Assembly: GCA_919901565.1 (NCBI GenBank)
Contig: CAKKPE010000114.1
Coordinates: 1 to 39,004, forward strand
Source: a bacterium
GTDB lineage: Bacteria > CG2-30-53-67
Length of the DNA: 39,004 nt
Direction: 5' to 3'
The notes under the pieces were generated by a model. It searched no databases and had not been told where the DNA came from. It saw only the letters and a list, made by a program, of their open reading frames with translations. Below, one piece after another: positions 1 to 27,084 of this stretch (position 1 is the stretch's first letter; every line of letters starts with the position of its first letter). The translations under genes were made by a program, and so were the position numbers.

Positions 1-3000
1 AGCCGCCGTGCTGCTCGATGACCTCGTCGATCTCCTTCATCAGGCGGATGGTCTCGTTGAGCGCGACGACGATCTTCTGGTAGTGAGAGATGTCGTCCTT
101 GGAGAGCGTGCGGCCCTTGCGGTCCTTGAGCCACTTCTCGCAGACCTGATAGCCACCGATGTGGAAGTTCCACACGGCCTCGGGCACACCGCGGAAGCCT
201 ATGGTGCCTGGCGTGGCGGGCTGGCCCTTCTTCGTCGCAGCGGCGTCGAGCCAGACGGTGTCGTTCGACCAGCCGACCCGTCCGACCTCGGGTTTCTTGG
301 GGCCGGTGAAGGCGGTGATGAAGTGGTCGAGCTTGGGCGACTCCGTCAGGTGAAGGGCGACGAGTTCGCTACCAAGACGAGCCAGGGATTCAAACAAGAC
401 GCCTGTCCGGGGGATCGGAATCCGAGCGTAATCCATCCGCAACTCGTCGCGGTAAAGAGCACGGTAGCTTCCCGAAAAGAGAATCGAGTAGATGAAGCCC
501 AGCACCTCGACCGCGTCCGGCACACGCCCTACTTGTCTGCTAAGGGAATCAAGGAACGGCTTGCTGAGATTGGGAGTGAATCGCGGCTTGCTCCTCGAAT
601 CATCGAATAGCGATGCGAGACCCCCAGACAGCTTTTCATCGAGCCACAATGGACTTAGGTTCGCACCACGATCGTGAGAGCCCGTTTTCATTTCTATCGC
701 GTGGCGCGACACAAATGCGTGGGTAAACTCGCCCGACGGCACTTGGCGCACCGATACCAATCCGAGATTCCGGCCTGAGAGCATCTGCACCGCCACATCA
801 GCCCGGGGGCGGTCGATCAAGCGTGGCTCATAGAAGATCCAACGCTGGTCGAACGGACGGTACAGAATCGGACGGACACGCTTTTCCCAGTCGGGTTCGT
901 TTCTCAGTGCTCGCCGCACATCCTCGAAACCGTCCTCTGCCTTCGACGCGATATAGTGCCGGAGCTTCCCGATCAGCGAAGCCTTGTCGAAATCGATCAC
1001 AAGGTCGTCCCGATGAGTCTTGATGCCACCGTTGTCCAGCCCAAAGATGTCCTCGATGCTGCTGAACCGTCTGTAATCCTCGGAGCTGTTGTCAACGCGA
1101 GCAAACAAATAGAATGGCGGGATTGGCGACACCATCTGCCACTCTGAATACACGGACAATGCCGCGGATTTTTCTACGCGTGTCCCCCACACCTCTCTGA
1201 ATGACACCCGAGAGCCCGGCGCTGGCACCATCGCAAACACCCCGATCGCAACTCCCTGCTGAATATCGAATACGTTGTCGTTTGCTTGGCCGGCGGGGGG
1301 GAGCTCTCCGACGTTTGAATCTCCATGCAGATCACACACCTGGATCACGCCGAATTGACTGAGAAGAGCCTCCCGGACGCCACGATGAATTACCCCAACC
1401 AGATACCCGCGATTCGAGACCATCCCATGCACCCCCCCTCCAGAGCCGTAAATGAGTTCCTGCGATAGCCCCATGAATTTCAGATAGTCATCAGAGAGAG
1501 GCTGGACGTTTCGTTCAGTGTGAACCGACGCTTTGTACGGGGCCACCAGGCCCTCTGCCGCTGCGGTTCGATTGGCCGAGCTCTTCGAGTAAGGAGGGTT
1601 CCCAATTACCACGGTGAACCGCTGCTTCCGCTTGACCTCGTTGACCGCCTGAGCCTCGTGCGCGAGTGCCGGGATCGCGAACTCAAAGGTCCCCGAGAAG
1701 TCCTGCGCCGGTTCTAGTGCATTCGTCAGGTAGATCCGCGCCCGCTTGTCGCTGCCGAAGGCGTAGCCGGTTTCGTAGAGCTTGAGCCCGACCTTCAGGT
1801 GCGCGATGGCGTAGGGCGCCATCAGGAGTTCGTATGCGTGCAGGCGCGTCAGCAGGTGCTTGGGCACGTATTCGTTCCACAGCGCCGCCATCTTCTTCTC
1901 ACCGTGGCCCTGCGCCTTCCACTTGGCGGCCATCGTCTTGTGAATGATGTCGATGACCTCGACGAGGAAAGTGCCGGTTCCGGTGGCGGGATCTAGGATC
2001 TGCACGAAGACCTGGTCGGGTGACGTGCCTTCGGGGATCTTCAGGTCCTTGTGGCGCTTGGCCATCTCGCCCCAAGTGGTCGTGTCGGCGAGACCGTCTT
2101 CGAGGCCGAACTCGGTGCGCAGCAGTTCGTCCACCGACCGCACGATGTAGGAGACCACCGGGCGCGGGGTGTAGAAGACGCCGCGCTGCATCCGCTTCCT
2201 GGCGTCGTACTCCTTGAGGAACAACTCGTAGAAGTGGATGACCGGGTCTTCCTGCGGGTTCTTGTCGCCAAAGTCGAGGACGACGGCTTCCATGTTGGCG
2301 TCGTCTAGCAACTGCACGACTTCGCTTACACCCAACTCGTCGAAGTCGATGCCCGGCCCGCCCGCCTTACCGCGCCGCCCACCGACCTTGAGGAAGGTCT
2401 CCATCAGCTCTCGCAGGAACGGGTTGGTGCGCATATGGCCGGCGAAGTCATCAACTGTCTTCTTGTGCGGGTCGGCGATGCGCGCCGAGAGCAGACCGTA
2501 GGCAATGGTCTGCGCGTACATGTCTGCGAAGCCGTCGGCGTCGAGGTCGTGGACCAGCGACGTCTGGAACGCCTTCATCAGCTTGGTGAGCGGTCCTCGG
2601 TCGGTCTCGATGGCGAGCGCGGATTTGATCCGGTCGCGGATGTCGCCCGCCAGCTTGGCCAGGCGGATCGAGAGTTCCTTCGAGGTGGTGACGACCTCGC
2701 CGTGGCGCAGGGTGAAGGCGCCGCGCCAGCCCTTGCGCCAGGCCTCGACATCGGCGTCGTCGTCGGGCCAGGCCAGATGCTGCGTCAGCTCCTTTGCAAC
2801 GGCGTCAAGATGCAACGCCGTGTCGAGGTTGTCCCAGCCGAGCACCTTGAGGGTGGGCAGATCGTGGCCGTCAGGAGCCTTCGAAAAATGAGCGAAGCTG
2901 ATCTGGCGCTCGTCACCTTCTCCGTAGTTCGAAACGAAGAGCAGGTCGTCGGCGGCCCAGGCGGTGCGGTCGGCGCTGTTGGCGGAGGCGCGCTTCTTGA

Positions 3001-3301
3001 GTGCCACCTGGCTCAGGATGCGGCGCAGCGCCACCACCGGGAGCTTCTTCGGCTCGAACTTGACGAAGAAGATGCCCCAGGGCTGGCGTGTCGAGAGCGG
3101 CTTCAGGCGCTTGATCTCGGTGATCTTGGCAGCGGTCTTCGGGTCGATGCCGAGCTCGTCGGCGGTGAAGTCATAGAAGAGATCGTCCACGTCCTCGAAC
3201 GAGTCCCGAGCAATCGGCCAGCCCATCTCGTCGCGCAGGTAGGCGATGAGTTGGTCGAATCGCTTGATGTTCGCGAGCGCGGAGCGGTGGTCGGTCGGCA
3301 T
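1..3301 (-). CDS. N6-adenine DNA methyltransferase of a type ISP-like restriction or defence system (C-terminus off the window)
   Basis: The minus strand is open from an ATG at 3301 to the left edge, about 1100 codons without a stop, so the 3' end is missing. Two motifs identify an S-adenosylmethionine-dependent adenine-N6 methyltransferase: DPATGTGTF (motif I, SAM binding, near residue 437) and GNPPY (catalytic motif IV, near residue 567). A stretch with FADMYAQTIAYGLLSAR (about residue 270) and the long C-terminal part with GNPPYSKSS and LYRPFD resemble the methylase and target-recognition half of type ISP enzymes. Residues 1-250 contain no nuclease motif that I can see. The gene starts 4 bp after the stop of the PLD-helicase gene, so the two should be co-transcribed and probably act together. 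Codons are strongly G/C-ending, unlike the por and mgl genes next door. The methyltransferase call is secure. The system type is inferred, and a class 1 DISARM-like methylase is the main alternative. Confidence 0.88.
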   Translation of the reverse strand, partial: MPTDHRSALANIKRFDQLIAYLRDEMGWPIARDSFEDVDDLFYDFTADELGIDPKTAAKITEIKRLKPLSTRQPWGIFFVKFEPKKLPVVALRRILSQVALKKRASANSADRTAWAADDLLFVSNYGEGDERQISFAHFSKAPDGHDLPTLKVLGWDNLDTALHLDAVAKELTQHLAWPDDDADVEAWRKGWRGAFTLRHGEVVTTSKELSIRLAKLAGDIRDRIKSALAIETDRGPLTKLMKAFQTSLVHDLDADGFADMYAQTIAYGLLSARIADPHKKTVDDFAGHMRTNPFLRELMETFLKVGGRRGKAGGPGIDFDELGVSEVVQLLDDANMEAVVLDFGDKNPQEDPVIHFYELFLKEYDARKRMQRGVFYTPRPVVSYIVRSVDELLRTEFGLEDGLADTTTWGEMAKRHKDLKIPEGTSPDQVFVQILDPATGTGTFLVEVIDIIHKTMAAKWKAQGHGEKKMAALWNEYVPKHLLTRLHAYELLMAPYAIAHLKVGLKLYETGYAFGSDKRARIYLTNALEPAQDFSGTFEFAIPALAHEAQAVNEVKRKQRFTVVIGNPPYSKSSANRTAAAEGLVAPYKASVHTERNVQPLSDDYLKFMGLSQELIYGSGGGVHGMVSNRGYLVGVIHRGVREALLSQFGVIQVCDLHGDSNVGELPPAGQANDNVFDIQQGVAIGVFAMVPAPGSRVSFREVWGTRVEKSAALSVYSEWQMVSPIPPFYLFARVDNSSEDYRRFSSIEDIFGLDNGGIKTHRDDLVIDFDKASLIGKLRHYIASKAEDGFEDVRRALRNEPDWEKRVRPILYRPFDQRWIFYEPRLIDRPRADVAVQMLSGRNLGLVSVRQVPSGEFTHAFVSRHAIEMKTGSHDRGANLSPLWLDEKLSGGLASLFDDSRSKPRFTPNLSKPFLDSLSRQVGRVPDAVEVLGFIYSILFSGSYRALYRDELRMDYARIPIPRTGVLFESLARLGSELVALHLTESPKLDHFITAFTGPKKPEVGRVGWSNDTVWLDAAATKKGQPATPGTIGFRGVPEAVWNFHIGGYQVCEKWLKDRKGRTLSKDDISHYQKIVVALNETIRLMKEIDEVIEQHGG

Positions 3302-3305
3302 GGCC

Positions 3306-6300
3306 TCAGCCCTCGTTCAGTTCCATCCAGCAGCGGAGCGCCGGCTTGACCCCGACCGGAGCGTCCACCCGCTTGAGGTAGGTGTTCTTGATGTGCTTCT
3401 CGATCTTCGCCCGGATCTCGACGAGGGTCTTCTCCTCGGTGGTGCACTTGCGCGGCGTCTCGGGTTTGGAGCGGATGCTGGCGACGATCTCGCCCGGCTC
3501 CTCGAGGATGGCGTCGCGATCGAGGTCGTAGAGGTACCAGCGGGTCGTGCCGGCCTCTTCGGTGAACTCCCCCGCCTGCTTGTCGAGGGCGGGGAGCGAG
3601 TAGCAAAAGAACACTCCACGCGCCCCTTTAGCCACGCGCTTGCGTCCGCTAAAGGTGGCGCCGGGCAGGCGCTTGAGGCGCGAATCCAGCTCGGGGTCGA
3701 CCTGGAGCAGGGCCTGGTACTCGAGGTGCATGTCCTCGACGGCGGTCTTGGTGCCCTCATAGGCATGGTTGAACTCCCTGAGTGCCTCGTAGTCGTCCTC
3801 GGGCGTCAGGAGCTTCCTGCCCTCGATCCCGAGTGTTTTCGAGATCAGCAAGGTCTTCTGCGTGACCTTGGTGTAGAGGGTGAGAATCGCATTCAGCTCC
3901 TCGGGGGGTAGGAAGTTCCAGAAGCTCACCTTCCCGCGGGAGGTGGCTACCTCCGGGTGGTCAGCGACGAGCTGCTTCTCCACATCCGGGTTCATGCGCC
4001 GGTCCACACGGCCGATGCGCTGCATCAGGCGCACCGGGTTCCAGTGGATGTCGTAGTTGATCATCCGCGACGCGTCCTGGAGGTTCAGACCCTCGGACAG
4101 AACATCCGTGGAGATGAGGACGCGGATCTCTGTGCGGCCCTTGTCCGCAAGTGCGGCCGACGAGCAGCCGTTGTAGTATGGGGAGAAGCGCTGGATGACC
4201 TCGGCGCGGTTACCCTTGGAGGCGCTGTCCACCTGGGCGACTCCATCGATGCCGGCCTGGTCGAGCTGGCGCTTCAGGTAACGGGCGGTATCGGCGAACT
4301 CGGTGAAGATCAGAACTTTCTGCCCCACGAGTTCCTTTGACTTGAGCAGTCGGACGAGCTTCTGAAGCTTGTCGTCGTTCTTGGGCTCAAACTTCCGAGC
4401 CTCGTCGAGAAACTGCACGATCTGATCGAGGTCGAGAAAAGTCTCGGACATCATCTCCTCGACCTTGTACTCGTTGCGGTCGAGGCGTTCGACGGCGTCG
4501 AGCATCTCCTGGGGCACGATGTCCTCGTCCTCGGACTCGTCGCCATCCTCGCCCCAGATTTCGAGTTGGCGGTGTGTCGCATAGCCGAGGATCTCGGCGT
4601 TCTGGGACTTCCAGCGCTCGAGTCGCTTCTTTTCAGCGTCGGTCCCGCTGTGGACCTGCAGGAAGGCGATCAATTTCTGCAGCAGACGGTCGCAGGAAAG
4701 CTCGAAAGAGATCACGGAACTCTCAAACCGCTTCAGAAAGTTCGTTCTGATCAGGCCGACGATCTGACCCTGGCGCCCTTCTTCCAAGGGGTCGATGCTG
4801 GTGTCCGGTCCCTTGTACCAGGCAAGCGGGTAGTACATCGGCAGGGTGAAGAGAGGGTTCTTCCGGGTGAAGGCCTTCTCGAACATGTCGAGTAGCCGGC
4901 CGTAGGTCTTGCGGATGGAGTATTCGGCCAACTGCGGAGCCTTGCGCTCCGGGAAGGCGGCGGCGTTGCCGGTCTCGCGGATCTGGCTCTCGCGCGCATA
5001 AGCTCGGCTGCGCTGCACGACGAGATGGCGGAAGATCTCGTCGGTCGCCAGAATTTCCTGCGCCTCCGCCATCTCTTCGACGACGTCAGTCACGTCATGC
5101 CCGACCCGGGTGCGCAGCGCCTTCTCCATCTGGTTGAAATGTGCGCTTAGATTGTTGACGCCCAAGGTTCGGCCGAAGTACGCCTCGTCTCGGCGAGTGA
5201 ACAGCTCGGCCATGTGCCGGAAGTCGCTCAGACGGTTGTTGATCGGCGTGGCCGTCAGCATGAAGAGGGTCTTGGGCCGGGCAGCTTGATCGAGCAGCTT
5301 GTAGAGCTGGTAGTAACGTGACGGTTCGACCTCTTCGTCAGCGTCGCCCTGGCGACCCGGATTGCGGAAGTGGTGGGCCTCGTCGATGATCACAACATCG
5401 GCGAGTTCGGCGATCCGGCGAAATCGCTCAGGAAAGTCGCCCTTGCGCCCGAGGTCCGTGTGGCTGAAGACGGCGAGGTTGCTGAAGTCGGCGTTCCCGC
5501 CGACGCCACCGATGTGCGGCAGCCACTCGCGCAGGTGCGGATCCCAAACGCCCTCCTTTGTGGCCTTGGGAGCAAAGAGCACGACCCGCTTGCCTTCGTG
5601 GAGGATGAGCCGCTCGATCAGCATCAGTCCGACGAAGGTCTTGCCGAGCCCGACGCCATCGCAGAGGAACGCGCCACCGTGCTGGCGCGCGATCTTCATG
5701 AGCGCCCAGTAAGCCTCCTTCTGATAGCAATCGATCCGGGGGAACATCTTCGAGCGCGTCTCGTCCCACTCGGTTGCGGTCAGCTCGTGGCCGCGGAAGA
5801 ACTCCTGGAGTGCCTTCGCGTAGACGTCGAACGGCGTGTAAAGGTGCGTGTGGCGTGAGATGGTCTCGATGACCGCATCGGTCACCTCGCTCGCCAGGTT
5901 CCAGTGCGCCTCGAACCACTCTTGAAGCTGGGCGACCTCGCGTGCGCTCTGGACCTGGATGTTGAGCTCGATGTTCTTGGTGAGTCCCGGGCGGGTGAAG
6001 TTGCTCGACCCGACCAGGGCCTGGGCACCGACCACTTCGAGCTTGGCGTGCGTGATGTAGGCCTTGGCGTGGAACTTGTCCTTGTCGTAGACGCGGCACT
6101 GGATCTGGCCCGAGCGGAGGGCTTCCAGGATCGCCGGGACGCTGTGGAGGAACGGGTTAGTGTCCTTTTCGTTCTCCAAGCTTTTGTCAAGCTGCTCCGT
6201 CGCTCTGGTTCGGACCGCATCGAGGAGAGCCCTACGCGTACGCTGGGTTGTCTCCGCTCCCATCAGGATCCTAATCTTGTCGAGTGACTGCCACTTCCCG

Positions 6301-6455
6301 TCGAGGGCCAGGAGCGCTCCGATCTCGAAATAGCCCGTGGCGATATCAAACGCCTTGGCGATGCCCGTCCACTCTTCTAGGTAGCGCAACCCGGTCCAGC
6401 CGGAGACACTGTTATCGACGATGAAGAGGTCTCGGCCTCTGGATTCAGCGGTCAT
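3306..6455 (-). CDS. SNF2-family helicase with N-terminal phospholipase-D-like nuclease domain
   Basis: The protein has 1049 residues. The N-terminal 200 residues form a PLD-like nuclease fold with HAK at 129-131 and GSSN at 149-152. The aspartate expected five residues after the lysine appears to be a histidine (H136), and only one HKD-type motif is present, so activity would need a dimer. An SF2/SNF2 helicase core follows: Walker A GVGLGKT (267-273), DEAH (358-361), LTATPINN (motif III) and a C-terminal lobe with STDVLSEGLNLQ and QRIGRVDRR (about 806-818). ATG 6455 is preceded by GAGG at a good distance. The downstream methyltransferase begins 4 bp after the stop. The likely role is ATP-driven DNA translocation and cleavage in a restriction or anti-phage system. 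Helicases of this type also occur as orphan repair-like proteins. GC content is clearly higher than in the genes to the right. Confidence 0.88.
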   Translation of the reverse strand: MTAESRGRDLFIVDNSVSGWTGLRYLEEWTGIAKAFDIATGYFEIGALLALDGKWQSLDKIRILMGAETTQRTRRALLDAVRTRATEQLDKSLENEKDTNPFLHSVPAILEALRSGQIQCRVYDKDKFHAKAYITHAKLEVVGAQALVGSSNFTRPGLTKNIELNIQVQSAREVAQLQEWFEAHWNLASEVTDAVIETISRHTHLYTPFDVYAKALQEFFRGHELTATEWDETRSKMFPRIDCYQKEAYWALMKIARQHGGAFLCDGVGLGKTFVGLMLIERLILHEGKRVVLFAPKATKEGVWDPHLREWLPHIGGVGGNADFSNLAVFSHTDLGRKGDFPERFRRIAELADVVIIDEAHHFRNPGRQGDADEEVEPSRYYQLYKLLDQAARPKTLFMLTATPINNRLSDFRHMAELFTRRDEAYFGRTLGVNNLSAHFNQMEKALRTRVGHDVTDVVEEMAEAQEILATDEIFRHLVVQRSRAYARESQIRETGNAAAFPERKAPQLAEYSIRKTYGRLLDMFEKAFTRKNPLFTLPMYYPLAWYKGPDTSIDPLEEGRQGQIVGLIRTNFLKRFESSVISFELSCDRLLQKLIAFLQVHSGTDAEKKRLERWKSQNAEILGYATHRQLEIWGEDGDESEDEDIVPQEMLDAVERLDRNEYKVEEMMSETFLDLDQIVQFLDEARKFEPKNDDKLQKLVRLLKSKELVGQKVLIFTEFADTARYLKRQLDQAGIDGVAQVDSASKGNRAEVIQRFSPYYNGCSSAALADKGRTEIRVLISTDVLSEGLNLQDASRMINYDIHWNPVRLMQRIGRVDRRMNPDVEKQLVADHPEVATSRGKVSFWNFLPPEELNAILTLYTKVTQKTLLISKTLGIEGRKLLTPEDDYEALREFNHAYEGTKTAVEDMHLEYQALLQVDPELDSRLKRLPGATFSGRKRVAKGARGVFFCYSLPALDKQAGEFTEEAGTTRWYLYDLDRDAILEEPGEIVASIRSKPETPRKCTTEEKTLVEIRAKIEKHIKNTYLKRVDAPVGVKPALRCWMELNEG

Positions 6456-6671
6456 TGAGGTCCTCGCATCGATTCGAAACCTTGCGAAAGCACAATTGGC
6501 ATCGCATCTTCACATACCATTTAAGTCGCCCGTACATGAAGAACCTCAGCCGTGCCAGGCTTTGAATCGTAAATTAAGATTTCTGCAAAAAACAAGAAAA
6601 CCGCCCTATACTTCACTCTTCCCTGTGAAATATCCGACGGTTTCATAGAACCAATCCCCCTCTTTAACTAA

Positions 6672-6752
6672 AGCGGTCAGCATTCAGCGGTCAGCAAGAA
6701 CTACAGCGATCCAGTAGGAAGTGTGTCGGTGATACGTAGTCAGTGGTCAGCA
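6672..6752. repeat. Three near-identical AGYGGTCAGCA direct repeats
   Basis: AGCGGTCAGCA occurs at 6672-6682 and 6686-6696, and AGTGGTCAGCA at 6742-6752. A second pair, TAAGAACGGT, lies at 6939-6948 and 6955-6964. They look like remnants of degenerate short tandem repeats in non-coding DNA next to the acquired module. No function is proposed. Confidence 0.5.
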
Positions 6753-7010
6753 ACTTCTCAACACCATCACACGACCTTGTTAAGAGATACGCTTTTTTTT
6801 GAAATATTGCTCCGGAAAAGCGGTGTCTCCGGCATAGATAAAGCGGAAATGATTATAATCAAATGAGGGTATTCAATGCAAGATAAAAGACGGGGCGGTA
6901 AAACCAGATGACGGACGACGGCAAGACAGATGACAGATTAAGAACGGTGGGCAGTAAGAACGGTAAGGGCGGAGGGCAGGGGACGGAAGGTCAGCGGAGG
7001 AGAATAATGA

Positions 7011-7032
7011 AAAGGGGACAGATATCCCCTTT
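7011..7032 (-). terminator. Perfect 8-bp palindrome downstream of mglA, possible terminator or REP-like element
   Basis: AAAGGGGA (7011-7018) and TCCCCTTT (7025-7032) form a perfect stem around a 6-base loop. Read on the minus strand the stem ends in CCCCTTTTC, a weak U-tract, about 45 bp beyond the mglA stop. It can therefore serve as an intrinsic terminator for the por-mgl operon. GGGGACAGAT-type palindromes are also common as scattered REP-like elements in related genomes, which is the alternative reading. Confidence 0.45.
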
Positions 7033-7074
7033 AATCTGAGCTCGGCAGGAAACGATTGAGAGACTGTATTGGGG

Positions 7075-7665
7075 CTAACTCCCGGATTTCTTGAGTTCCA
7101 GAAGGACCCGTTTGGCTACGGCCTTCAGGGTCTCGAAAACGCCGGGACCCTTGGGGGCCACGGCCTCAAACCAGGGGACATTGAGGGGGTTCAGGGATGC
7201 CTGGAGTTCTTCAATGGTGGCAATATTGTCCAGGTCTCTCTTGTTGTACTGCGTGACATAGGGGAGCTTGGCGAGGTCGTATCCCTGCTCCATGAGGTTT
7301 TCCTTGAGGTTTTCCACGCTCTCGATGTTGGCATCCATCCTCTCCAACTGAGAGTCGGCGACAAAAACCACGCCGTCCACCCCTTTGAGGATCAGCTTCC
7401 GGCTGGCGTCGTAGAAAACCTGGCCGGGGACGGTGTAGAGATGAAAGCGCGTCTTGAATCCCCGGATGGTGCCCAGGGCCAGGGGAAGAAAGTCGAAAAA
7501 AAGGGTCCTCTCGGTCTCCGTGGCCAGAGAGATCATCTTCCCCCTGGAGTCCGAGTTGGTTTTTTCATATATGAACTGAAGATTGGTGGTCTTTCCGCCG
7601 AGACCAGGGCCGTAGTAGACGATTTTGCAGTTGATTTCCCTGGAAGAGTAATTAATAAACGACAT
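7075..7665 (-). CDS. mglA: Small Ras-like GTPase MglA
   Basis: This 196-residue protein is a bacterial Ras-like GTPase of the MglA family, the switch that sets cell polarity and directs motility or type IV pili in Myxococcus and relatives. Visible motifs are the P-loop GPGLGGKTT (about residues 19-27), the switch II segment TVPGQ and the guanine-specificity motif NKRD. The length matches the family. AAAGGAT precedes ATG 7665 at normal spacing. It is the last gene of a minus-strand operon, 26 bp behind a Roadblock protein. Roadblock proteins of the MglB type are the GTPase-activating partners of MglA, so the pair probably works as a GTPase switch with its regulator. The upstream por genes are probably in the same transcript. 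Confidence 0.93.
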
Positions 7666-7691
7666 GCTTTATCCTTTGCGAGAGAGGGCTC

Positions 7692-8195
7692 CTACCCAAA
7701 CAGCCTGTCTATATCTTCATCTGTAATCTCTTCTAAGGGAGAACCGAGACCTTCTGACTCCTTGCCTTCACCTTGCTGTTTCTTCTGTTGAATCTCCTCA
7801 AAAATGCGGGTTAAAGCCTCCGCGCTCTTCTTGACCCTGAGGCGGACCAGGCCGAGGGAAGACCGCTGGTCAAAAATAATGACCAGGATGACTCTTCTCC
7901 CGATAATGGTTATATGAATGTTGTCTTTTTCGCCCTCGTGGAAAAGAATGGAGAATTCCTTTTCACCGATGAGCTTGGCCATGCCTCCGGTGGCGGCGAT
8001 ATTCCCTGCTGTCAGGGACGCCAGGGAGGTCGTGTCCATATTCTCATTCTCTCCGCAGCTCGTAATCAGCTGGCCATCCCGGTCCACCAGAAAGACCATT
8101 TTGGCGTTGGTCTGCAGGTGAAGCTTCTTGATCTCCTCGTCTATCTTTACGAAATCCTCTTCGTAAAGGACAAAGTTTGAAAGTGGCATTGACAT
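7692..8195 (-). CDS. Roadblock/LC7-domain protein, probable MglB-type partner of MglA
   Basis: Starting at ATG 8195, which has AGAGG about 7 bases upstream, the protein has 167 residues. The reading frame is open further upstream but lacks a ribosome-binding site there. The body (about residues 15-125) has the pattern of a Roadblock domain, with VFLVDRDGQLI, a helix rich in Ala/Gly (LASLTAGNIAATGGMAKLIG) and NIHITIIGRRVILVIIFD. A charged tail of some 30 residues follows and ends in the acidic sequence EEITDEDIDRLFG. This tail makes it longer than a minimal Roadblock protein. MglB proteins dimerise and stimulate GTP hydrolysis by MglA, and the adjacent mglA supports that role here. The symbol mglB is likely, but I leave it open because other Roadblock regulators look alike. 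Confidence 0.82.
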   Translation of the reverse strand: MSMPLSNFVLYEEDFVKIDEEIKKLHLQTNAKMVFLVDRDGQLITSCGENENMDTTSLASLTAGNIAATGGMAKLIGEKEFSILFHEGEKDNIHITIIGRRVILVIIFDQRSSLGLVRLRVKKSAEALTRIFEEIQQKKQQGEGKESEGLGSPLEEITDEDIDRLFG

Positions 8196-8300
8196 ATTGT
8201 GCCTCTTGAATGGGCCATGCTCAAGGATGCTTGAGATCAAACATGGTGTTATAAGCTAATATATTATATTTAACATATATTTAGAGAAATTACAACTTTT

Positions 8301-9263
8301 TTATTTTTCTGTTTTTTCTGCGGGTTGTTCTCCCTGGCCTGCCTTGTGCTTTGCCAAAAGCGCTTCCCAGTCCTTATCGATCTGTTTTTGCGTTTCTTTG
8401 ATGATCCATTCATTTTCCGGTTTGAAGAGGTGTTTGAAACGGCCCTGGACACTGAACCACTCCTCGATCGGCTTCTTCTCCTTGGGCGTGTAGGTGATTT
8501 TTGTCTTTCCGTTCTCCACCTCGTACAGCGGCCAGAAACAGGTGTCCACGGCAAGCTGGGCCTCACGAATGGCGCCATCCAGGGCCGAGCGCCACCCCCG
8601 ATTGCAGGGGGAGACGATGTTCAGGAAACTCGGGCCTTCGGTGTTCAGGGCCTTGCGCACCTTCTGCATGAGGTCCCGCCACTGCGATGGGCTGGCCTGG
8701 GCGAGATAGGGGATGTCGTGGGCCTCCACGATTTTGGTCAGATTCTTTCTGGCCTGCATCTTGCCGGGAATCACTTTGCCTGCCGGGCTCGTGGTGGTCG
8801 CCGCCCCTTTGGGGGTGGAACTCGACCTCTGTATCCCCGTGTTCATATAGGCGCCGTTATCATAGCAGACATACGTGAAATCATGGCCCCTCTCCAGGGC
8901 TCCGGACAGGGACTGGAGCCCGATGTCGTAGGTCCCGCCGTCTCCTCCGAAGGCTATGAACCGGATCGGCCGGTTGATCTTTCCCTGTTTTTTTAGAGAC
9001 TGATACATGGCCTCGATTCCCGAAGCCGTGGCCGCAGAATTTTCAAAGGCCGAATGGAAAAAAGGCACCCTCCATGCCGTAAAGGGATAGATGGTGGTCG
9101 CCACTTCGAGGCAGCCCGTGGCAGAGGTCACCACCACGGGGTCCTCCGCGGCCAGAAGGATTTGCCGCACAATGATCGACGCCCCGCATCCGGCGCAGAG
9201 GCGGTGTCCTCCGGTCAGAAGGTCTTGTTTCCTGGATAACTCTTTCAGGGTCAGCTTGCTCAT
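8301..9263 (-). CDS. porB: 2-oxoacid (pyruvate-type):ferredoxin oxidoreductase, beta subunit
   Basis: The protein has 320 residues. This subunit binds thiamine pyrophosphate (TPP) and a [4Fe-4S] cluster in the enzyme that oxidatively decarboxylates 2-oxoacids, or carboxylates acyl-CoA, using ferredoxin. CAGCGAS near residue 22, a further Cys in ATGCLE, FGGDGGTYDIG (the TPP/Mg site) and a later Cys (SPCNRGW) provide the expected ligands. AAGGAG precedes ATG 9263. It lies 15 bp behind porA, in the order porG-porD-porA-porB. The lysine- and glutamate-rich C-terminal tail (AGQGEQPAEKTEK) is variable in the family. Pyruvate is the most likely substrate given the delta subunit type, but related enzymes use 2-ketoisovalerate. 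Confidence 0.92.
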   Translation of the reverse strand: MSKLTLKELSRKQDLLTGGHRLCAGCGASIIVRQILLAAEDPVVVTSATGCLEVATTIYPFTAWRVPFFHSAFENSAATASGIEAMYQSLKKQGKINRPIRFIAFGGDGGTYDIGLQSLSGALERGHDFTYVCYDNGAYMNTGIQRSSSTPKGAATTTSPAGKVIPGKMQARKNLTKIVEAHDIPYLAQASPSQWRDLMQKVRKALNTEGPSFLNIVSPCNRGWRSALDGAIREAQLAVDTCFWPLYEVENGKTKITYTPKEKKPIEEWFSVQGRFKHLFKPENEWIIKETQKQIDKDWEALLAKHKAGQGEQPAEKTEK

Positions 9264-9278
9264 GATAGGCTCCTTGTG

Positions 9279-10460
9279 TCAGTTTCGTACCGTCATGTAC
9301 TCGGCCAGGGTCTTGATCTTCCCGGTCTCGGAAATCTTCAGAAGTTCCTGGAAAACGTCCCGGACATGCTGGAGTCCCAGGTCTCTGCCTCCCAATCCGA
9401 ATATCTTGTTGATCATCAGGGGTCTTTGTTTCGCATCATAGAGGGCCGATCTGAACTCCGGAAAAAGAGGGCCGCTCAGGCCGTTGACGCCATCGGCCCG
9501 GTCCATCACGCAGACCGCCTTGACTCCGGAGAGGGCCTGTGCGATTTCGTCTGCGGGGAAGGGGCGGAAGACCCTGGGTTTGAGAAGGCCGGCCTTGACA
9601 CCCTTGCCGCGCAGGTCATCGATCACGGTCTTGACCGTACCTGCTGCGGAATTCAGAACCACGATGGCCACTTCGGCCCCGTCCAGATGGTATTCTTCAA
9701 AGAGACCGTATTTCCTTCCCGAGATCCTGGCGAACTCCTTGGCCACCTGCAGGATCACGGGCTTGGCCTTTTTCATGGCCTCATATTCCTGGCGCTTGTG
9801 TTCTATATAGTAGTCCTGGAGATCCAGAGGACCGTAGGTCATGGGGTTGTCCACATCGAGGAGGGGCCTGTTGGGAATATATTCCCCGATGAAATCCCGG
9901 ACGACCTGGTCATCCAGCAGTTCCATGCTCTCGATGGAATGGCTGATGATGAAACCGTCCATGCCCACCATCACGGGCAGGCGCACCTCCATGTTCTCTG
10001 CAATGCGGATCGCCTGAATCACGTTGTCGTAGGCCTCCTGCGCGTTTTCCGAGAAAAGCTGGATCCAGCCCGAATCCCTTGCGCCCATGGCGTCCGATGT
10101 GTCGCCGTGTATGTTGATCGGTGCTGACAAAGCCCGGTTGGCCATGGCCAGCACGATGGGAAGCCTGTTGCCGGCGGCAATGTAGAGCATTTCCCACATG
10201 AGGGCCAGCCCCTGCGAGGAGGTGGCGGTCATGACCCGGCCTCCGGCCGCGGCCGCTCCGATGCATGCGCTCATTGCGCTGTGCTCGCTCTCGGCCGGGA
10301 CCAGAACGGTCTTGACCTCGCCGTCCGAGACAAAGCTGGAAAACTGCTGCATAATCTCCGTGGACGGCGTAATCGGATAGGCGGCACAGACATCGGGGTT
10401 GATCTGCCGCATCGCGTTGGCCACGGCGATGTTGCCTGTCATTGCTACTTTCTGTCCCAT
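9279..10460 (-). CDS. porA: 2-oxoacid (pyruvate-type):ferredoxin oxidoreductase, alpha subunit
   Basis: I start the protein at ATG 10460 (MGQKVAMTGN), 393 residues, because AGGAG stands just upstream. The frame is open for another 37 codons, but that stretch overlaps porD and is not family-like. The N-terminal domain carries the conserved substrate-loop sequence AAYPITPSTEI. ESEHSAMSACIGAAAAGGR and TATSSQGLALMWE follow, both typical of the pyrimidine-binding domain of these enzymes. The C-terminal third has the transketolase-C-like fold region (KAVCVMDRADG). It is co-transcribed with porD upstream and porB downstream. Confidence 0.93.
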   Translation of the reverse strand: MGQKVAMTGNIAVANAMRQINPDVCAAYPITPSTEIMQQFSSFVSDGEVKTVLVPAESEHSAMSACIGAAAAGGRVMTATSSQGLALMWEMLYIAAGNRLPIVLAMANRALSAPINIHGDTSDAMGARDSGWIQLFSENAQEAYDNVIQAIRIAENMEVRLPVMVGMDGFIISHSIESMELLDDQVVRDFIGEYIPNRPLLDVDNPMTYGPLDLQDYYIEHKRQEYEAMKKAKPVILQVAKEFARISGRKYGLFEEYHLDGAEVAIVVLNSAAGTVKTVIDDLRGKGVKAGLLKPRVFRPFPADEIAQALSGVKAVCVMDRADGVNGLSGPLFPEFRSALYDAKQRPLMINKIFGLGGRDLGLQHVRDVFQELLKISETGKIKTLAEYMTVRN

Positions 10461-10501
10461 GGGTTCTCCTTTTATCCTGATTGGTATATTCTTTTGTTCT
10501 C

Positions 10502-10792
10502 TTATTTTCCTTCCTGCACCATGGTGATGGCCTGGACCTTCTTCGGGCAAACGTCGGCGCAGACTCCGCACCCCTTGCAGTGTTTGAGGTTGAACCCGGT
10601 CATCTTTTCGTCTTTGACTTCAATGGCCGTGTCCGGGCACGATATCCAGCAGACCAGGCAGTGAATGCACTTTTGTTCGTCCAGTACGGGTTTATAGGTC
10701 CTCCATCCGCCGGTGACGTAGTTGTCCGCGTTTCCCGCTTCTTCAATGACCCCTCCAGTCGGGATCTCTTTCCAGTTTTTTAGTCCACTCAT
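10502..10792 (-). CDS. porD: 2-oxoacid:ferredoxin oxidoreductase, delta (2x[4Fe-4S] ferredoxin) subunit
   Basis: The 96-residue protein carries two complete 4Fe-4S ligand sets, CIHCLVCWISCP and CKGCGVCADVCP, and passes electrons from the catalytic subunits to external ferredoxin. The N-terminal TGGWRTYKPV pattern is characteristic of delta subunits of pyruvate-type enzymes. Its ATG overlaps the porG stop codon by 4 bp (ATGA), with AAAGG just upstream, which implies translational coupling. Confidence 0.93.
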   Translation of the reverse strand: MSGLKNWKEIPTGGVIEEAGNADNYVTGGWRTYKPVLDEQKCIHCLVCWISCPDTAIEVKDEKMTGFNLKHCKGCGVCADVCPKKVQAITMVQEGK

Positions 10793-11358
10793 TTTCCTTT
10801 CACCTCCTTGTAGGCCCGCTCAACGGACTCGGCGTTCCCTTTGATGATTTTTTCCGGAAACTTTTTGCCCAGGGTCTTTTTCATATCCTTGAGCACGGTC
10901 TCGAGCTTTACCAGCCCGGTCACGCGGGCCAGTGCCCCCAGCAAGGGCGTGTTCGGAATGGGCCTTCCCAGACAGTCAATGGAGATCTGCGTCGCATCCA
11001 CGGTAAAGACCTTGTCTGCTGGCCGGCCGATCTTCTTCGCAATCTGCTCGGGCGTATGTGTTGTGTTGACCAGAAAGACAGCGGCTTCGGGAGTCCCTTC
11101 GGTCACGTCCAGTGTATCCATCAGGGAGCTGTCCACAACGATCACCACGTTGGGGTTGGTGACCTGACAGTGCATGGTGAGCGGCGCGTCGCTGATCCGG
11201 TTGTAGGCGCGAAGGGGGGCCCCCATACGCTCCGGTCCGTACTCCGGAAAGGCCTGCACATATCCGCCTTCGGCCATCGCGGCTTCGGCCAAAACCTTGG
11301 CCGCTGTAACCGCCCCCTGGCCGGCGCGTGCATGCCATCTTATTTCGGTAATGCCCAT
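10789..11358 (-). CDS. porG: 2-oxoacid:ferredoxin oxidoreductase, gamma subunit
   Basis: The 189-residue protein starts with TEIRWHARAGQGAVTAAKVLAEA, the family signature (R-x-G-x-G), followed by FPEYGPERMGAPLRAYNRIS. Near residue 125-140 it has IPNTPLLGALARVTG, also typical. It is the first gene of the por cluster, 75 bp behind recR. AGGAGA and AAGGAT lie upstream of ATG 11358. Four separate subunits, rather than one fused chain, are the archaeal and anaerobe-type arrangement. The organism is therefore probably at least partly anaerobic, although the cluster could also serve the reverse (carboxylating) direction. Confidence 0.92.
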   Translation of the reverse strand: MGITEIRWHARAGQGAVTAAKVLAEAAMAEGGYVQAFPEYGPERMGAPLRAYNRISDAPLTMHCQVTNPNVVIVVDSSLMDTLDVTEGTPEAAVFLVNTTHTPEQIAKKIGRPADKVFTVDATQISIDCLGRPIPNTPLLGALARVTGLVKLETVLKDMKKTLGKKFPEKIIKGNAESVERAYKEVKGK

Positions 11359-11433
11359 AATCCTTGTCTCCTTTCTTTACAAAAAAATTTATCGGCTATT
11401 TCACAAACAGGGCAGTCAATATGTTTCCCGGTC

Positions 11434-12030
11434 TTAGAGTTCACTCCTGCCCTCCATGGCCTTGGACAGGGTCACCTCATCCGCATATTCGAGATGCCCG
11501 CCTATGGGGATCCCGCGGGCGATCCGGCTTATTTTACAGCGGCACTTGGATCGAAGGATCTGGAGCAGGTACATGGCCGTGGCCTCACCTTCAATCGTCG
11601 GGTTCGTAGCCAGGATCACCTCCTTGACCGGTTCGAGTTCAAGACGACGGACAAGGGACTGGATGTTGAGCTCCTCGGGCCCAACCGCATCCATAGGCGA
11701 AAGGGCGCCGTTGAGTACATGATACTGGCCCCGGTATTCTCCTGTCCTGTCGATGGCCATCACATCCATGGCCTCCTGCACCACGCAAATCATCGAGGGG
11801 TCCCGCTTCGAATCTGAACAGATCCCGCAAAGCTCCGATTCGGATAGATTTCCGCATCTGGCGCAGAAGCGGGTCTTCTCCTTGAGATCCTCGATGGCCC
11901 GGGCCAGCCCCAGGGCACGCTCTTTCGGCATCTTCATCAAAAAGAAGGCGAGCCTCTGGGCCGTCTTGGATCCGATCCCGGGAAGCCTCTTCAGCTCCTC
12001 GATCAGCCTGTTCAATGAAGAGGTTTTCAC
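11434..12030 (-). CDS. recR: Recombination mediator protein RecR
   Basis: This 198-residue protein works with RecF and RecO to load RecA on gapped DNA. It has the N-terminal helix-hairpin-helix (LKRLPGIGSKTAQRLAFFL), the zinc finger C-x2-C...C-x2-C (CARCGNLSES, CGIC) and a TOPRIM domain (VVQEAMDVMAID, ATNPTIEGEATAMYL). The start is GTG at 12030 with an AAAAAGG stretch upstream. It follows ybaB by 44 bp, which is the standard dnaX-ybaB-recR arrangement. Confidence 0.96.
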   Translation of the reverse strand: MKTSSLNRLIEELKRLPGIGSKTAQRLAFFLMKMPKERALGLARAIEDLKEKTRFCARCGNLSESELCGICSDSKRDPSMICVVQEAMDVMAIDRTGEYRGQYHVLNGALSPMDAVGPEELNIQSLVRRLELEPVKEVILATNPTIEGEATAMYLLQILRSKCRCKISRIARGIPIGGHLEYADEVTLSKAMEGRSEL

Positions 12031-12074
12031 AATGCCTTTTTCCTGTGGTCAGGACAGATGTCCCGTTTTCGCAA

Positions 12075-12392
12075 TTAAAAGAGTCCAGGGATGCTGAGCC
12101 CGCCCGTCAGTTTCTTAAGATCCTCCTGCATCATCTCCTTGGATTTCCGGATCCCCTCATTGACTGCTGCAGCGATGAGGTCCTGCAGCATCTCTATATC
12201 ATCGGCATCCACGATCTCGGGTTCAATCTGTATGGAAAGGATCTCCTGCCGCCCGTTTATCTTCACGGCAACCATGCCGCCCCCGGATGAGGCGTCGATC
12301 ACCTTTTTCCCGGCCTCTTCCTGGGCCTGTTTCATTTTCTCCTGCATCTGCTGGGCCTGCCGCATCAATTCATTCAACATATTTGATGACAT
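12075..12392 (-). CDS. ybaB: Nucleoid-associated protein, YbaB/EbfC family
   Basis: The 105-residue protein (ATG 12392, AAGGAGG upstream) has the family pattern: an N-terminal helical segment rich in Met, Gln and Lys (LNELMRQAQQMQEKMKQAQEE), the central strand set GGGMVAVKINGRQEILSIQI and the helix DLIAAAVNEGIRKSKEMM. These dimeric proteins bind DNA and are found almost always between dnaX and recR, as here. The open frame continues 21 codons upstream, but that stretch is part of an inverted repeat and is not conserved-looking. Confidence 0.94.
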   Translation of the reverse strand: MSSNMLNELMRQAQQMQEKMKQAQEEAGKKVIDASSGGGMVAVKINGRQEILSIQIEPEIVDADDIEMLQDLIAAAVNEGIRKSKEMMQEDLKKLTGGLSIPGLF

Positions 12393-12408
12393 GACCGTTT
12401 TCCTCCTT

Positions 12409-12456
12409 AGTGGTCCTGTTCGTAAATATGCCACCGTATTTACGAATAGGGCCACT
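12409..12456. repeat. 20-bp inverted repeat between dnaX and ybaB
   Basis: The arm at 12409-12428 and the arm at 12437-12456 are complementary over 20 bp with two mismatches that would be G-U pairs in one of the two RNA strands. The loop is TGCCACCG. The outer end touches the last base of the dnaX stop codon, and the other end stops just before the ybaB ribosome-binding site. No T-run follows, so it is more likely an mRNA processing or stabilising hairpin than a terminator. Confidence 0.75.
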
Positions 12457-14123
12457 TAGTGTTCGGCACCAAAGTCCTTCACATCCTGAACCTTGCCCTT
12501 GAAGATCCTCAGGGCCTCCTGAACCACATGGTTGCCGAGATTCTCCTTTAAGAGCCGGTCTTTCTTTTCCTTTTGCAGGTCTTCCTTTGTCTCGGTAAGC
12601 GTCTTCTTCCCTGGTTCAGTGCCGTTGTGTAATGAAAAGGCCAGGGCAAAATCCCTTTGCAGCAGGCCCTTGATTATTTCAACCATTTTTTCTTTTTTTT
12701 CCACGGCCATGTCGTAGTGGATCTTCTTTTTAAATCCGATGATGATCTTATGAGGCTCCGTCTCTTCAAGAAATCCGTGTTCCAATATCGAGCCGACTAA
12801 GGGGTTGGCCTTGTTCGCGTGATTCACGATTTTTTCCCAATCCAACGGGAGCGATGCCTCTCTGGAGGAGATAGGGCCCTGCTCAGAAGGTTTATGTTCG
12901 GGAGAGGTTGAGGCTCGATACGTATTGTCTGCAGGAGGGTCCTGGATCAACGTCCGGCCGCTGCCGGCGTCCCCGGCACGGAGCTTCTTCTCCAAGCCTT
13001 CTATCTGGTCAAGAATCTCCTTGAACTCCAGCAGGGGCTTGATGCGCGTCATCCTGAGCAGCGCCACCTCCAATACAATCCTCGGGTGGGTGGAGTGACG
13101 GATCTCCTCTTCGGTCTTGTTCAGGTATTCTATAAACGCAAGAAGCCGGTCCTCTTCAACTGTTTCTGAAATCGGACGCAGCTTCTCGACCTCCTCCTTT
13201 TCGATATGGATCACGTTGTTCGGGCTCTTCAGGATCTTGATCATCAACAGGTTTCTGAAATAGAGTTGAAGCTCCCTGCAAAACTCGACAAGGTCCACTC
13301 CAAGGGAATGAAGTCTCTCCACCAGGTTCATGACTCTCTCGGCATCCTGTTCAATCAGCGCAAGAGTGCATTCGTCCAAAACCTCCGGGTCGATAACCCC
13401 CAGCACCAGCTTGATATCCGCAACCGTTATCTTGTCCCCGCAAAAAGAGAGGATCTGATCCAGCAGGCTCTGGGCATCCCGCATGCTCCCTTCGGATGAG
13501 CGGGCAATCAGGCGCGCCGACTCCCGGTCTATTACAAAACCTTCCTGTTCGGAAATCCTGAGTATATGGTCGGTGATGTTCTGAACCGGGATGCTGCGGA
13601 ATTGAAAACACTGGCAGCGGGACTGGATGGTTACGGGGACCTTTTGCGGTTCTGTGGTTGCAAATACAAAGATCACGTGGGACGGCGGTTCTTCCAGCGT
13701 CTTCAGAAGCGCATTAAATGCGGCCTTGGAGAGCATGTGTACTTCATCGATGATATATATTTTGTACCGGGTGCTTGCCGGCGCATACAGGACATTCTCC
13801 CTGAGCTCCCGGATATCGTCAACGCCGGTGTTGGAGGCCCCGTCGATCTCGATCACATCCATGGCATTCCCCTGGGTAATCTGAAGGCAATGGGAACATT
13901 CGTTGCAGGGCGACATGGTCGGCCCTTTCTCACAATTTAAGGCCTTGGCCAAAATCCTGGCCATGGTGGTCTTCCCCACACCCCTCATTCCCGAAAAAAG
14001 GAACCCGTGGGCAATCCTTCCGGATTCCACGGCATTCTTCAACGTCCGGGTGATATGCTCCTGCCCGATGACATCTTCAAAAGACTGCGGACGGTATTTC
14101 CTTGCCAGAACCTGATATGACAT
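12456..14123 (-). CDS. dnaX: DNA polymerase III clamp-loader subunit tau/gamma
   Basis: The protein has 555 residues from ATG 14123. A GTG immediately before is a possible alternative start. DnaX is the ATPase of the clamp loader and, as tau, links it to the polymerase. Visible are LARKYRPQSFEDVIGQEH at the N-terminus, Walker A GMRGVGKTT (about 45-53), zinc-binding cysteines (CEKG...CNECSHC), the DEVH Walker B and the SRC sensor (IQSRCQCF). The C-terminal 150 residues are weakly conserved and rich in Lys and Glu. A run of eight A followed by G and six A lies at codons 475-479 and could allow frameshifting. ybaB and recR follow, and the SRP RNA lies just upstream. Confidence 0.96.
   Translation of the reverse strand: MSYQVLARKYRPQSFEDVIGQEHITRTLKNAVESGRIAHGFLFSGMRGVGKTTMARILAKALNCEKGPTMSPCNECSHCLQITQGNAMDVIEIDGASNTGVDDIRELRENVLYAPASTRYKIYIIDEVHMLSKAAFNALLKTLEEPPSHVIFVFATTEPQKVPVTIQSRCQCFQFRSIPVQNITDHILRISEQEGFVIDRESARLIARSSEGSMRDAQSLLDQILSFCGDKITVADIKLVLGVIDPEVLDECTLALIEQDAERVMNLVERLHSLGVDLVEFCRELQLYFRNLLMIKILKSPNNVIHIEKEEVEKLRPISETVEEDRLLAFIEYLNKTEEEIRHSTHPRIVLEVALLRMTRIKPLLEFKEILDQIEGLEKKLRAGDAGSGRTLIQDPPADNTYRASTSPEHKPSEQGPISSREASLPLDWEKIVNHANKANPLVGSILEHGFLEETEPHKIIIGFKKKIHYDMAVEKKEKMVEIIKGLLQRDFALAFSLHNGTEPGKKTLTETKEDLQKEKKDRLLKENLGNHVVQEALRIFKGKVQDVKDFGAEH
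12679..12704 (-). other. Possible slippage site in dnaX with an early stop in the -1 frame
   Basis: Codons 475-479 read GAA AAA AAA GAA AAA. A -1 shift at the AAAAAAAAG run would continue AGA AAA AAT GGT TGA and end the protein at 481 residues, about 75 residues shorter than full length. DnaX is known to be made in long and short forms by ribosomal frameshifting or transcript slippage in other bacteria. Here the site lies nearer the C-terminus than in E. coli. The run and stop are seen, but the function is an inference. Confidence 0.35.
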
Positions 14124-14166
14124 CACTGTATCCTTTTATATCGGAACTCTTTTTCACAATCACTCT

Positions 14167-25056: not shown

Positions 25057-26409
25057 TTAATGAGATTGAATTTCTTCCGTAAGTTTTTGCACCATGTTCG
25101 AGAAATCCGTATCTTTTTTTATTTTGCCCTCTATGTTCCGGCATGCATGAATCACCGTTGTATGATCTTTGCCGCCGAAGGATTTCCCGGTTTCTGGCAG
25201 AGATTTGTCCGTGAGCTTACGGCAGAGGTACATGGCTACCTGTCTGGGTACGACAATGGTTTGTGTTCTCTTTTTGGATTTGAGATCACCGATCCGGACA
25301 TTGAAATGTTCCGAGACCTTTTTCTGGATTTTCTCGATAGTGACGAGATCGCCCTTTTCATTGAAAAAATCCTTCAAGACCGTCTTTGCCAGGTCTATGG
25401 TAATCTCTTGACCTGACAGGGAGGCGAAAGCCCCGAGTTTAATCAGGGATCCTTCCAGCTCCCTGACGTTGGACCGTATCTTTTTTGCCAAAAAGAGGCT
25501 GACTTCATTAGGAAGGTTGATATGCTCGATTTCCGCTTTCTTGCAAAGTATGGCAACCTTGGTTTCAAGGTCCGGTGGATGGATATCTGCAAGAAGTCCC
25601 CACTCAAAACGGGAACGGAGCCTCTCCTCCAGGTTTTGAATCTCCTTGGGGTAACGGTCGCTGGAAAAAACCAGCTGTTTTCTTGTGTCATAGAGGGCAT
25701 TAAATGTGTGAAAGAACTCTTCCTGCGTTCTCTCCTTATCAGAGAGGAACTGAATATCATCTACCATCAAAACATCCATGTTTCTGTATTTATTTCTGAA
25801 TTGCGACATACGGTCATAACGGATACAGCTGATCATTTCGTTCATGAAATGTTCCGTACTGACAAACGTTACTCTGATGTTGGCGTTTTTAGAAAGGATG
25901 TGGTGACCGATCGCATGCATGAGGTGTGTTTTCCCGAGACCTACGCCTCCGTATATAAAAAGCGGATTGTAGGCTTTGTAGAGAACCTCTGCAACAGCCC
26001 TTGAGGCGGCATGAGCAAATTGATTGCTTGGACCGACCACGAAGTTATCAAAGGTGAACCGCGGATTAAGAAAGGACCGTTCTTTCGTTGAGGTGGAATC
26101 CTGTTTTTCCGGAAAGGCATCTATGGGTTTGTTTTTTTCTTTTTCGTTATGATCTTTTTCGTTTAAAATCATTAAGTCCTTGCTCACGGAGAAAGATAAT
26201 GTTTTTTTCGAATCCATGGTTTCAAGAATATCTTTAATGACGGTCAGATAATGGTTTTCTATCCATTCCTTAGAAAACTTGCTCGGAACAGAGACCATAA
26301 TCTCATGATCGTTTTCCTGAAAGAGTTTGGTCGGCTTGAACCAGGTTTCAAAACTCTGTTTAGGAATCTGCTTACTGATTATTTGAGTAATTTCTTCCCA
26401 AGTATTCAT
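25057..26409 (-). CDS. dnaA: Chromosomal replication initiator DnaA
   Basis: The 450-residue protein opens the origin. Domain I is at the N-terminus (WEEITQIISKQIPKQSFETWF), followed by a short Lys/Asp-rich linker. Domain III is an AAA+ ATPase with FVVGPSNQFAHAASRAVAE, Walker A GGVGLGKTHLMHAIGH, and Walker B VLMVDDIQFL. Domain IV has the DNA-binding signature GGKDHTTVIHACRNIE near the C-terminus. The length is normal. Putative DnaA boxes lie 52-83 bp upstream of its start, which allows autoregulation. Confidence 0.98.
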   Translation of the reverse strand: MNTWEEITQIISKQIPKQSFETWFKPTKLFQENDHEIMVSVPSKFSKEWIENHYLTVIKDILETMDSKKTLSFSVSKDLMILNEKDHNEKEKNKPIDAFPEKQDSTSTKERSFLNPRFTFDNFVVGPSNQFAHAASRAVAEVLYKAYNPLFIYGGVGLGKTHLMHAIGHHILSKNANIRVTFVSTEHFMNEMISCIRYDRMSQFRNKYRNMDVLMVDDIQFLSDKERTQEEFFHTFNALYDTRKQLVFSSDRYPKEIQNLEERLRSRFEWGLLADIHPPDLETKVAILCKKAEIEHINLPNEVSLFLAKKIRSNVRELEGSLIKLGAFASLSGQEITIDLAKTVLKDFFNEKGDLVTIEKIQKKVSEHFNVRIGDLKSKKRTQTIVVPRQVAMYLCRKLTDKSLPETGKSFGGKDHTTVIHACRNIEGKIKKDTDFSNMVQKLTEEIQSH

Positions 26410-27021
26410 AAAATTAAAAGAATATAAGAAAATTAGTCGTAATCTATTATAAAACTACAATTATCAACAGGGTTTTCCACAAATGTGAATAACGTAATTT
26501 TACTTTATTATTCATTTGGTTACGCATAAAAAGGTCTTGATGCTAAACAGTATTGTGCGATTACGGGTCTGAAGAATGTTTTTTTACAGTTTGAAGCATG
26601 TGGTATCTCTAATTTTTTAATTCGTTTGCCGTTTTTTTTGAGAGACAGGTTAAATAAGATAGCAAAACGATTTTTTGATAGCAAGCCTTTTTTTAGTTAA
26701 TATTATTCTTATAATTTTTTTCAATTTCACTGGGTTGTGAGGAAGCTGTATTTCTTTTGTGAATTTTTTTTGTTTATGGCCTTCCTTTCTCCATCAATCC
26801 ATAAAACCAAAATAAAAACACGCTGTATTTCACAAAGAACTTTCCTGTTAAACCATAGAAGACAAGCGGAATATAGGACCTCTCCACTATATTCCCAGCT
26901 CTTACTGTTACTATATAATTTATTATTATATATATTAAGTAATAATAGAACCCGTGTAAATCATTGAAGGCCCCAACCTTGGAAATCTATCGTCTTCTAA
27001 AAAATGGTCTCCCTTTTATTC
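26410..27021. other. Putative chromosomal replication origin (oriC) between dnaA and rpmH
   Basis: This 0.6-kb gene-free interval separates divergent dnaA and rpmH. It carries a cluster of DnaA boxes at 26461-26492, and the rest is very AT-rich. The richest stretch (about 26900-26950, almost only A and T) is a candidate unwinding element. Gene orientation switches here from minus to plus. The 76-codon ORF inside (26737-26967) has no family resemblance and is not called. The claim rests on position, boxes and composition. Confidence 0.8.
26461..26492. promoter_or_regulatory. Cluster of three DnaA boxes
   Basis: TTATCAACA (26461-26469) and TTTTCCACA (26473-26481) each differ by one base from the TTATCCACA consensus. 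TGTGAATAA (26484-26492) is a perfect TTATNCACA on the opposite strand. They are spaced 3-4 bp apart immediately upstream of dnaA. Confidence 0.78.
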
Positions 27022-27050
27022 TTGACAATAAAATTTCTTATGAATATACT
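27022..27050 (+). promoter_or_regulatory. Sigma-70-type promoter of the rpmH operon
   Basis: TTGACA (27022-27027), a 17-base spacer and TATACT (27045-27050) form a near-consensus promoter. It lies 34 bp before the rpmH start codon and points into rpmH-rnpA-yidD-yidC-jag. Confidence 0.85.
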
Positions 27051-27084
27051 TTCATGTTCCAACAGATATTACGAGGAGTTTATT

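Follow-up and report, generated by a model that had tools for sequence, protein, structure and literature searches.

The stretch of DNA analysed here (the window, 39,004 nucleotides in length) starts at the first base of a bacterial contig (C114), i.e., at a contig end, and opens with two genes of the minus strand, a helicase carrying its own PLD nuclease domain and an N6-adenine methylase (Table 1). The helicase matched PLDc_2 (7.5e-13), RE_NgoFVII (2.4e-6), Helicase_C and ResIII in Pfam. The initial annotation, made from the sequence alone, had read a PLD signature in this 1049-residue protein (HAK at residues 129-131, GSSN at 149-152); both motifs are correctly placed and invariant in 36 homologues, where H129, K131, G149, S150, S151, N152, N161 and E163 are all kept, as are the Walker A lysine (K272), the DEAH box and QRIGR. 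The structure prediction that it had proposed gave a model with Swi2/Snf2 motors, RapA among them, as its closest folds (E 2.9e-17), but the PLD part was modelled at low confidence (pLDDT 34-60) and, being poorly resolved, leaves the nuclease call to rest on sequence. PLD-SNF2 proteins are a kind already known from model libraries and the literature (PMC12839542), and families of related PLD-helicases are present in NCBIfam and PADLOC (NF042964, PDLC02193 and PDLC01075). In loci L060, L061, L062, L064, L065 and L068, a distant SNF2 helicase relative is linked both to a gene resembling type III Res and to a small protein, which in L060 is DUF4391; the hosts are Streptococcus suis, Algoriphagus and Bacteroidaceae.

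The methylase frame (2-3301 within the window) is still open at the window edge. The first 55 bases of the window match exactly one other site of the genome, the end of contig C142, and this match fits two ends of one assembly path. Across the join the frame stays open, giving a methylase of 1280 residues, and the joined sequence continues as in a relative (L031). The part added by C142 is a Peptidase_S24 domain (8.7e-7, above the curated cut-off) at the C-terminus of the protein. The initial annotation had described an ISP-like methylase of at least 1100 residues, correctly as regards its methylase and specificity parts; since the gene extends past the contig end, the S24 peptidase had escaped notice. 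Pfam matches comprise a complete Type_ISP_C domain (PF18135, 2.6e-66), N6_Mtase and Eco57I, and the type ISP enzyme LlaBIII aligned over residues 433-986 (3.4e-21). The methylase half has relatives among type ISP enzymes and among single-chain enzymes of the type IIG/DrdV-like kind, but carries a distinct and undescribed N-terminal domain. In four relatives (L012, L017, L029 and L086) the methylase C-termini contain repeated segments of the type 'ARELGYQRTG', which in L012 had no match in Pfam.

The GC content of both genes (0.61-0.62) stands against 0.50 in the rest of the window and about 0.50-0.52 nearby, and their GC3 (0.79-0.85) against 0.64-0.73 in the rest of the window. Transfer had already been considered likely from a GC content well above that of the flanks, and high GC together with close relatives in many phyla makes horizontal transfer well supported. 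Upstream of the helicase, after ~0.6 kb, there are genes for a small GTPase, an MglB-like protein and pyruvate:ferredoxin oxidoreductase, whereas downstream, on C142, we find an island with an AcrB-family pump in addition to the genes listed in Table 1. Farther into the window, an AT-rich dip (26001-28500, GC 0.34-0.39) lies between gene blocks of opposite direction.

Table 1. Features of the locus, with positions in the window unless contig C142 is given
Feature	Position	Strand	Basis or remark
PLD-SNF2 helicase-nuclease, proposed restriction/motor subunit, 1049 aa	3306-6455	minus	translation, Pfam, fold match
PLD nuclease domain, residues 36-185, single HxK...GSxN...E motif	5901-6350	minus	PLDc_2, invariant motif
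SF2/SNF2 helicase core, residues 244-820	3996-5726	minus	Walker A GVGLGKT, DEAH, QRIGRVDR
Intergenic gap, helicase stop to methylase start, 4 bp	3302-3305		
N6-adenine methylase (1280 aa) including a Type ISP specificity domain, initial 1100 aa	1-3301	minus	
N-terminal domain, residues 1-197, undescribed, proposed helicase-docking	2711-3301	minus	shared by the methylase partners of the helicase family
Helical connector and methylase core	1052-2710	minus	
Methylase motif I, DPATGTGTF	1967-1993		intact
Methylase motif IV, NPPY	1589-1600		intact
Type ISP C-terminal specificity (target recognition) domain, residues 751-1090	32-1051	minus	Type_ISP_C
Exact terminal overlap, 55 bp	1-55 = C142:20199-20253		last 55 bases of C142
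Remaining methylase part, beyond the window edge	C142:19657-20198		
S24 catalytic motif GKSM	C142:19939-19956		
S24 catalytic motif TVKR	C142:19807-19824		
Defence/conflict island (L079)	C142:10001-20253		IS630 transposase, AbiEi antitoxin-like, Fic, zeta-type, HsdM

Conservation of the pair and the methylase N-terminal domain

One scan of 84,980 genomes yielded 60 related loci, and in about 44 of them the methylase lies directly downstream of the helicase; carriers include Caenimonas koreensis and Bradyrhizobium. The pair occurs in Pseudomonadota, Acidobacteriota, Planctomycetota, Chloroflexota, Actinomycetota and other phyla, and since it is kept in dozens of genomes, the pairing is not due to chance. 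The 4-bp spacing reported at the outset holds for our locus and is identical in many close relatives, which suggests translational coupling of the two genes. No third gene recurred beyond a handful of related loci; in L011, L012, L013, L015 and L017 a gene of ~1230-1270 aa follows the pair, which in L011 encodes a RecD/UvrD-like SF1 helicase. Searches of viral contigs gave only two relevant loci (L092 and L093), so the pair is not a typical phage cargo. Two independent genome samples agreed with this picture. Among 386 genomes sampled around our genome (G000), the profile of the methylase N-terminal domain was found in four and that of the helicase in five, namely the same four plus one contig-end fragment, whereas in 68 genomes of one other class the N-terminal domain was present in six and the helicase in five, all of them shared, the sixth being genome G416. 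Over the two samples, 8 of 9 genomes with the N-terminal domain also encode the helicase.

The first ~197 residues of the methylase are the only part common to all aligned partners of the helicase. As the initial annotation had observed, no nuclease motif is visible in this protein: an alignment of 38 homologues contained no invariant D, E or K in that region and no conserved PD-(D/E)XK pattern. The invariant residues are instead W28, W75, F78, F82, R93, L120, L121, F122 and W192. The domain had no match in Pfam, and its predicted fold had none in the PDB at E<0.001 (Foldseek), so that a likeness to a degenerate PD-(D/E)XK core, to which the predicted succession of secondary-structure elements (helices and strands) hints, is speculative. 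In seven loci the same helicase and N-terminal domain occur with a different methylase body of the Eco57I kind, with a TaqI_C specificity domain in most of those examined. Plasmids offered 280 records matching the methylase, and among the matches listed the alignments begin at residue 190-221 and none covers residues 1-189; a Paracoccus plasmid relative has a clear PD...VEAK nuclease where the family has the N-terminal domain. From this co-conservation, the domain may dock the helicase-nuclease, a role against which stands the case of G416, where the N-terminal domain is present with ~0.6 kb of contig upstream and no helicase was found. A link to the methylase N-termini of cyanobacterial plasmids was plausible by eye, but the profile comparison was not significant and we rejected it. 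Two such plasmids (L095:4455-7760 and L098:4470-7661) encode an ISP-type methylase with a different N-terminus lacking an evident nuclease motif, and a SNF2 helicase gene of ~1400 aa close to one of them (L098:8364-12578) could perhaps form an analogous split system. In L087, an intact pair is closely followed by a broken second copy of the N-terminal domain (at about 12366-12902).

The median identity to relatives falls from 77% in the helicase and 72% in the N-terminal domain to 61% in the methylase core and 41% in the specificity domain, a gradient that would be usual for restriction-modification (R-M) systems changing specificity around a fixed restriction machine. The pair is a real, conserved two-gene R-M variant, and we regard as its likely form of action a two-subunit, ATP-dependent R-M system with a type III-like organisation, in which the methylase would recruit the PLD-SNF2 protein as restriction motor. 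The intact domains and motifs, the conserved pairing, the gradient, the helicase and N-terminal domain kept with an exchanged methylase body and the neighbouring AbiEi, Fic, zeta toxin and HsdM genes of the defence island all argue for this reading; the low-confidence PLD model and the N-terminal fold lacking a PDB match argue against it, and the genome also has HsdM and several other helicases, which complicates the attribution of an activity to the pair. Single-gene anti-phage PLD-helicases are known, and our helicase would be related to them if the two enzymes of the locus acted independently, the helicase as a defence protein on its own and the methylase as an orphan or as a self-sufficient enzyme of the type IIG-like kind. 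Such a reading, which would accommodate the related PLD-helicase families in the libraries and a methylase core resembling single-chain type IIG enzymes, is improbable in view of the tight co-occurrence, which persists over large distances with a short spacing that is often fixed at 4 bp, of a methylase lacking an N-terminal nuclease and of an N-terminal domain that stays with the helicase while the body changes.

A LexA-like S24 tail on the methylase

The most interesting and surprising part of the system is the C-terminal tail, whose role would probably be regulatory. The six S24 tails found all match PF00717, and the Ser-Lys dyad is intact in the S24 domain of our methylase. In an hhalign profile comparison the tails align with LexA of E. 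coli across its cleavage region (E 3.5e-6, 32% identity), with the Ser (GKSM/GMSM) and Lys (TVKR/TVKR) motifs in register and an Ala-Gly cleavage-like motif near the LexA cleavage region; in our methylase these are S1184, K1229 and an Ala-Gly near residue 1146. A search of PDB sequences with the S24 profile by itself gave no match. As in LexA and UmuD, Ser, Lys and the Ala-Gly site are present, but here the peptidase is fused to a methylase and not to a DNA-binding repressor, a fusion for which we found no description in the open-licence papers searched. The tail is optional, being carried by ~6 of 22 close ISP-type methylases; others end after 'HGGWPGAF', and a few have different tails. Placing the six carriers on the helicase tree takes six changes, no fewer than with shuffled labels, so the module seems to be gained and lost over time. 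A Halomonas plasmid record (L097:6941-9427) has an S24 domain of the same kind directly ending a Schlafen-group-3 helicase gene, an arrangement suggesting that S24 is a mobile module which attaches to proteins of defence systems.

Our genome assembly (97% complete) encodes RecA, and no other S24 protein or LexA-type S24 repressor was found in it, so the methylase tail would be its only LexA-type sensor. In this line, we tentatively advance the possible, if rather doubtful, idea of a built-in DNA-damage switch: on breakage of infecting DNA or of the host chromosome, the resulting RecA filaments would trigger self-cleavage of the methylase and change its oligomeric state, turning restriction either off, as a built-in form of restriction alleviation, or on. 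The RapA-like SNF2 fold, the LexA-like tail and the presence of RecA with no other S24 found could also be accommodated by a system that serves regulation or epigenetics and not the restriction of foreign DNA. Methylation would then be the primary function, hemimethylated or damaged DNA would be cleared or remodelled by the helicase, and the S24 domain would be the SOS sensor. We hold this to be quite improbable, since the intact and invariant PLD motif, the hypervariable specificity domain, the patchy horizontal distribution and the defence-island neighbours fit restriction, and the tail itself is missing from most homologues.

Relation to known systems and proposed mechanism

The pair as a unit is not described in the model libraries or the open-licence papers searched. 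The initial annotation had considered a split type ISP-like or a DISARM-like system and suggested profile searches of both proteins and a survey of the genes left of position 1. DISARM also joins a SNF2 helicase, an adenine methylase and a PLD protein, so that the locus might be read as a DrmD-type helicase with a fused DrmC and a DrmMI methylase acting together with DrmAB, and the helicase (P0001) does match DrmD (137 bits in NCBIfam, 107 bits in PADLOC) and, weakly, DrmC. In those searches, where PLDc_2 and Type_ISP_C were matched, the DrmD score (137.4 bits) stayed far below the curated cut-off of 610 and DrmMI matched the methylase with 15.1 bits. Neither drmA nor drmB was found on C142, on either flank across both contigs or as a recurrent gene in relatives, and the only MZB/DUF1998 protein of the genome lies on another contig; with the DrmA/DrmB core missing, we rejected DISARM as highly improbable.

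The DUF499-centred, BREX-related type 2/Hma systems likewise combine a separate N6-methylase with a protein in which an HKD nuclease and a Swi2/Snf2 helicase are fused, but need a DUF499 ATPase and a DUF3780 protein (PMC12839542). No DISARM or DUF499 partner, nor DUF3780, occurs in the annotated part of the window (1-14126) or on C142 near the locus, and DUF499 and DUF3780 are not recurrent in relatives, so this candidate was rejected as well. An ordinary type IIG enzyme was discarded because no nuclease pattern is conserved in the methylase N-terminus across 38 homologues. The connector, methylase and specificity part does align with type IIG/IIL enzymes (DrdV; PADLOC PDLC03610) from ~residue 196 to the end, but those work without a helicase, having a nuclease at their own N-terminus, whereas here a domain lacking such a motif replaces the nuclease and a helicase-nuclease is encoded alongside.

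As for type ISP enzymes (LlaGI, LlaBIII), the type of methylase and specificity domain, an SF2 motor and the expected adenine methylation are shared. Type ISP proteins combine all functions in one chain with an Mrr-type PD-(D/E)XK nuclease and a coupler, whereas our system has two chains, a PLD nuclease, the undescribed N-terminal domain and the S24 tail. The split two-chain, R-M-like character proposed at first is thus retained, with the PLD domain on the helicase, and the ISP label stands as an analogy only. CglI and NgoAVII also couple ATP-dependent restriction to a PLD nuclease and have a separate methylase gene, but their PLD and helicase proteins are separate, with a B3-like recognition domain on the nuclease and Z1 on the helicase (PMC4267653, PMC5737866); in our pair PLD and helicase are fused, and Pfam gave neither B3 nor Z1 matches. 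In SauUSI, a PLD nuclease and an SF2 helicase share one chain, but this single-gene enzyme is modification-dependent and has its own modification-reading domain (PMC7913695, PMC12707154), whereas recognition here appears to lie in the partner methylase. With type III systems (Mod/Res) the pair, whose genes co-occur, would share a methylase with target recognition and a helicase-nuclease depending on it for cleavage. Type III Res proteins carry a PD-(D/E)XK nuclease, for which we find PLDc_2 on a SNF2 helicase; the methylase is of the ISP/Eco57I kind and the gene order is res-mod.

In the two-subunit R-M system that we favour, the Type ISP-like specificity domain would let the methylase (Mod) recognise an asymmetric site, where methylation of an adenine would protect the host. 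Where the DNA is unmodified, the methylase would recruit or license the PLD-SNF2 protein (Res) through the N-terminal domain, the RapA-like motor would translocate and the PLD domain would cut, which should require two PLD copies together because each chain has a single HxK motif. Where present, the S24 tail could dimerise the methylase and release it on RecA-DNA filaments after damage.

If true, this scheme would add a two-gene, widely exchanged architecture to R-M systems, in which one undescribed domain lets differing methylases share a PLD-SNF2 motor, a natural example of modular recruitment. Moreover, the S24 tail offers a link, open to testing, of restriction control to the response to DNA damage. 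In type I R-M systems, control of restriction after damage runs through ClpXP or assembly (PMC12707154, PMC11109961), in comparison with which a LexA-type self-cleaving part would be a new solution.
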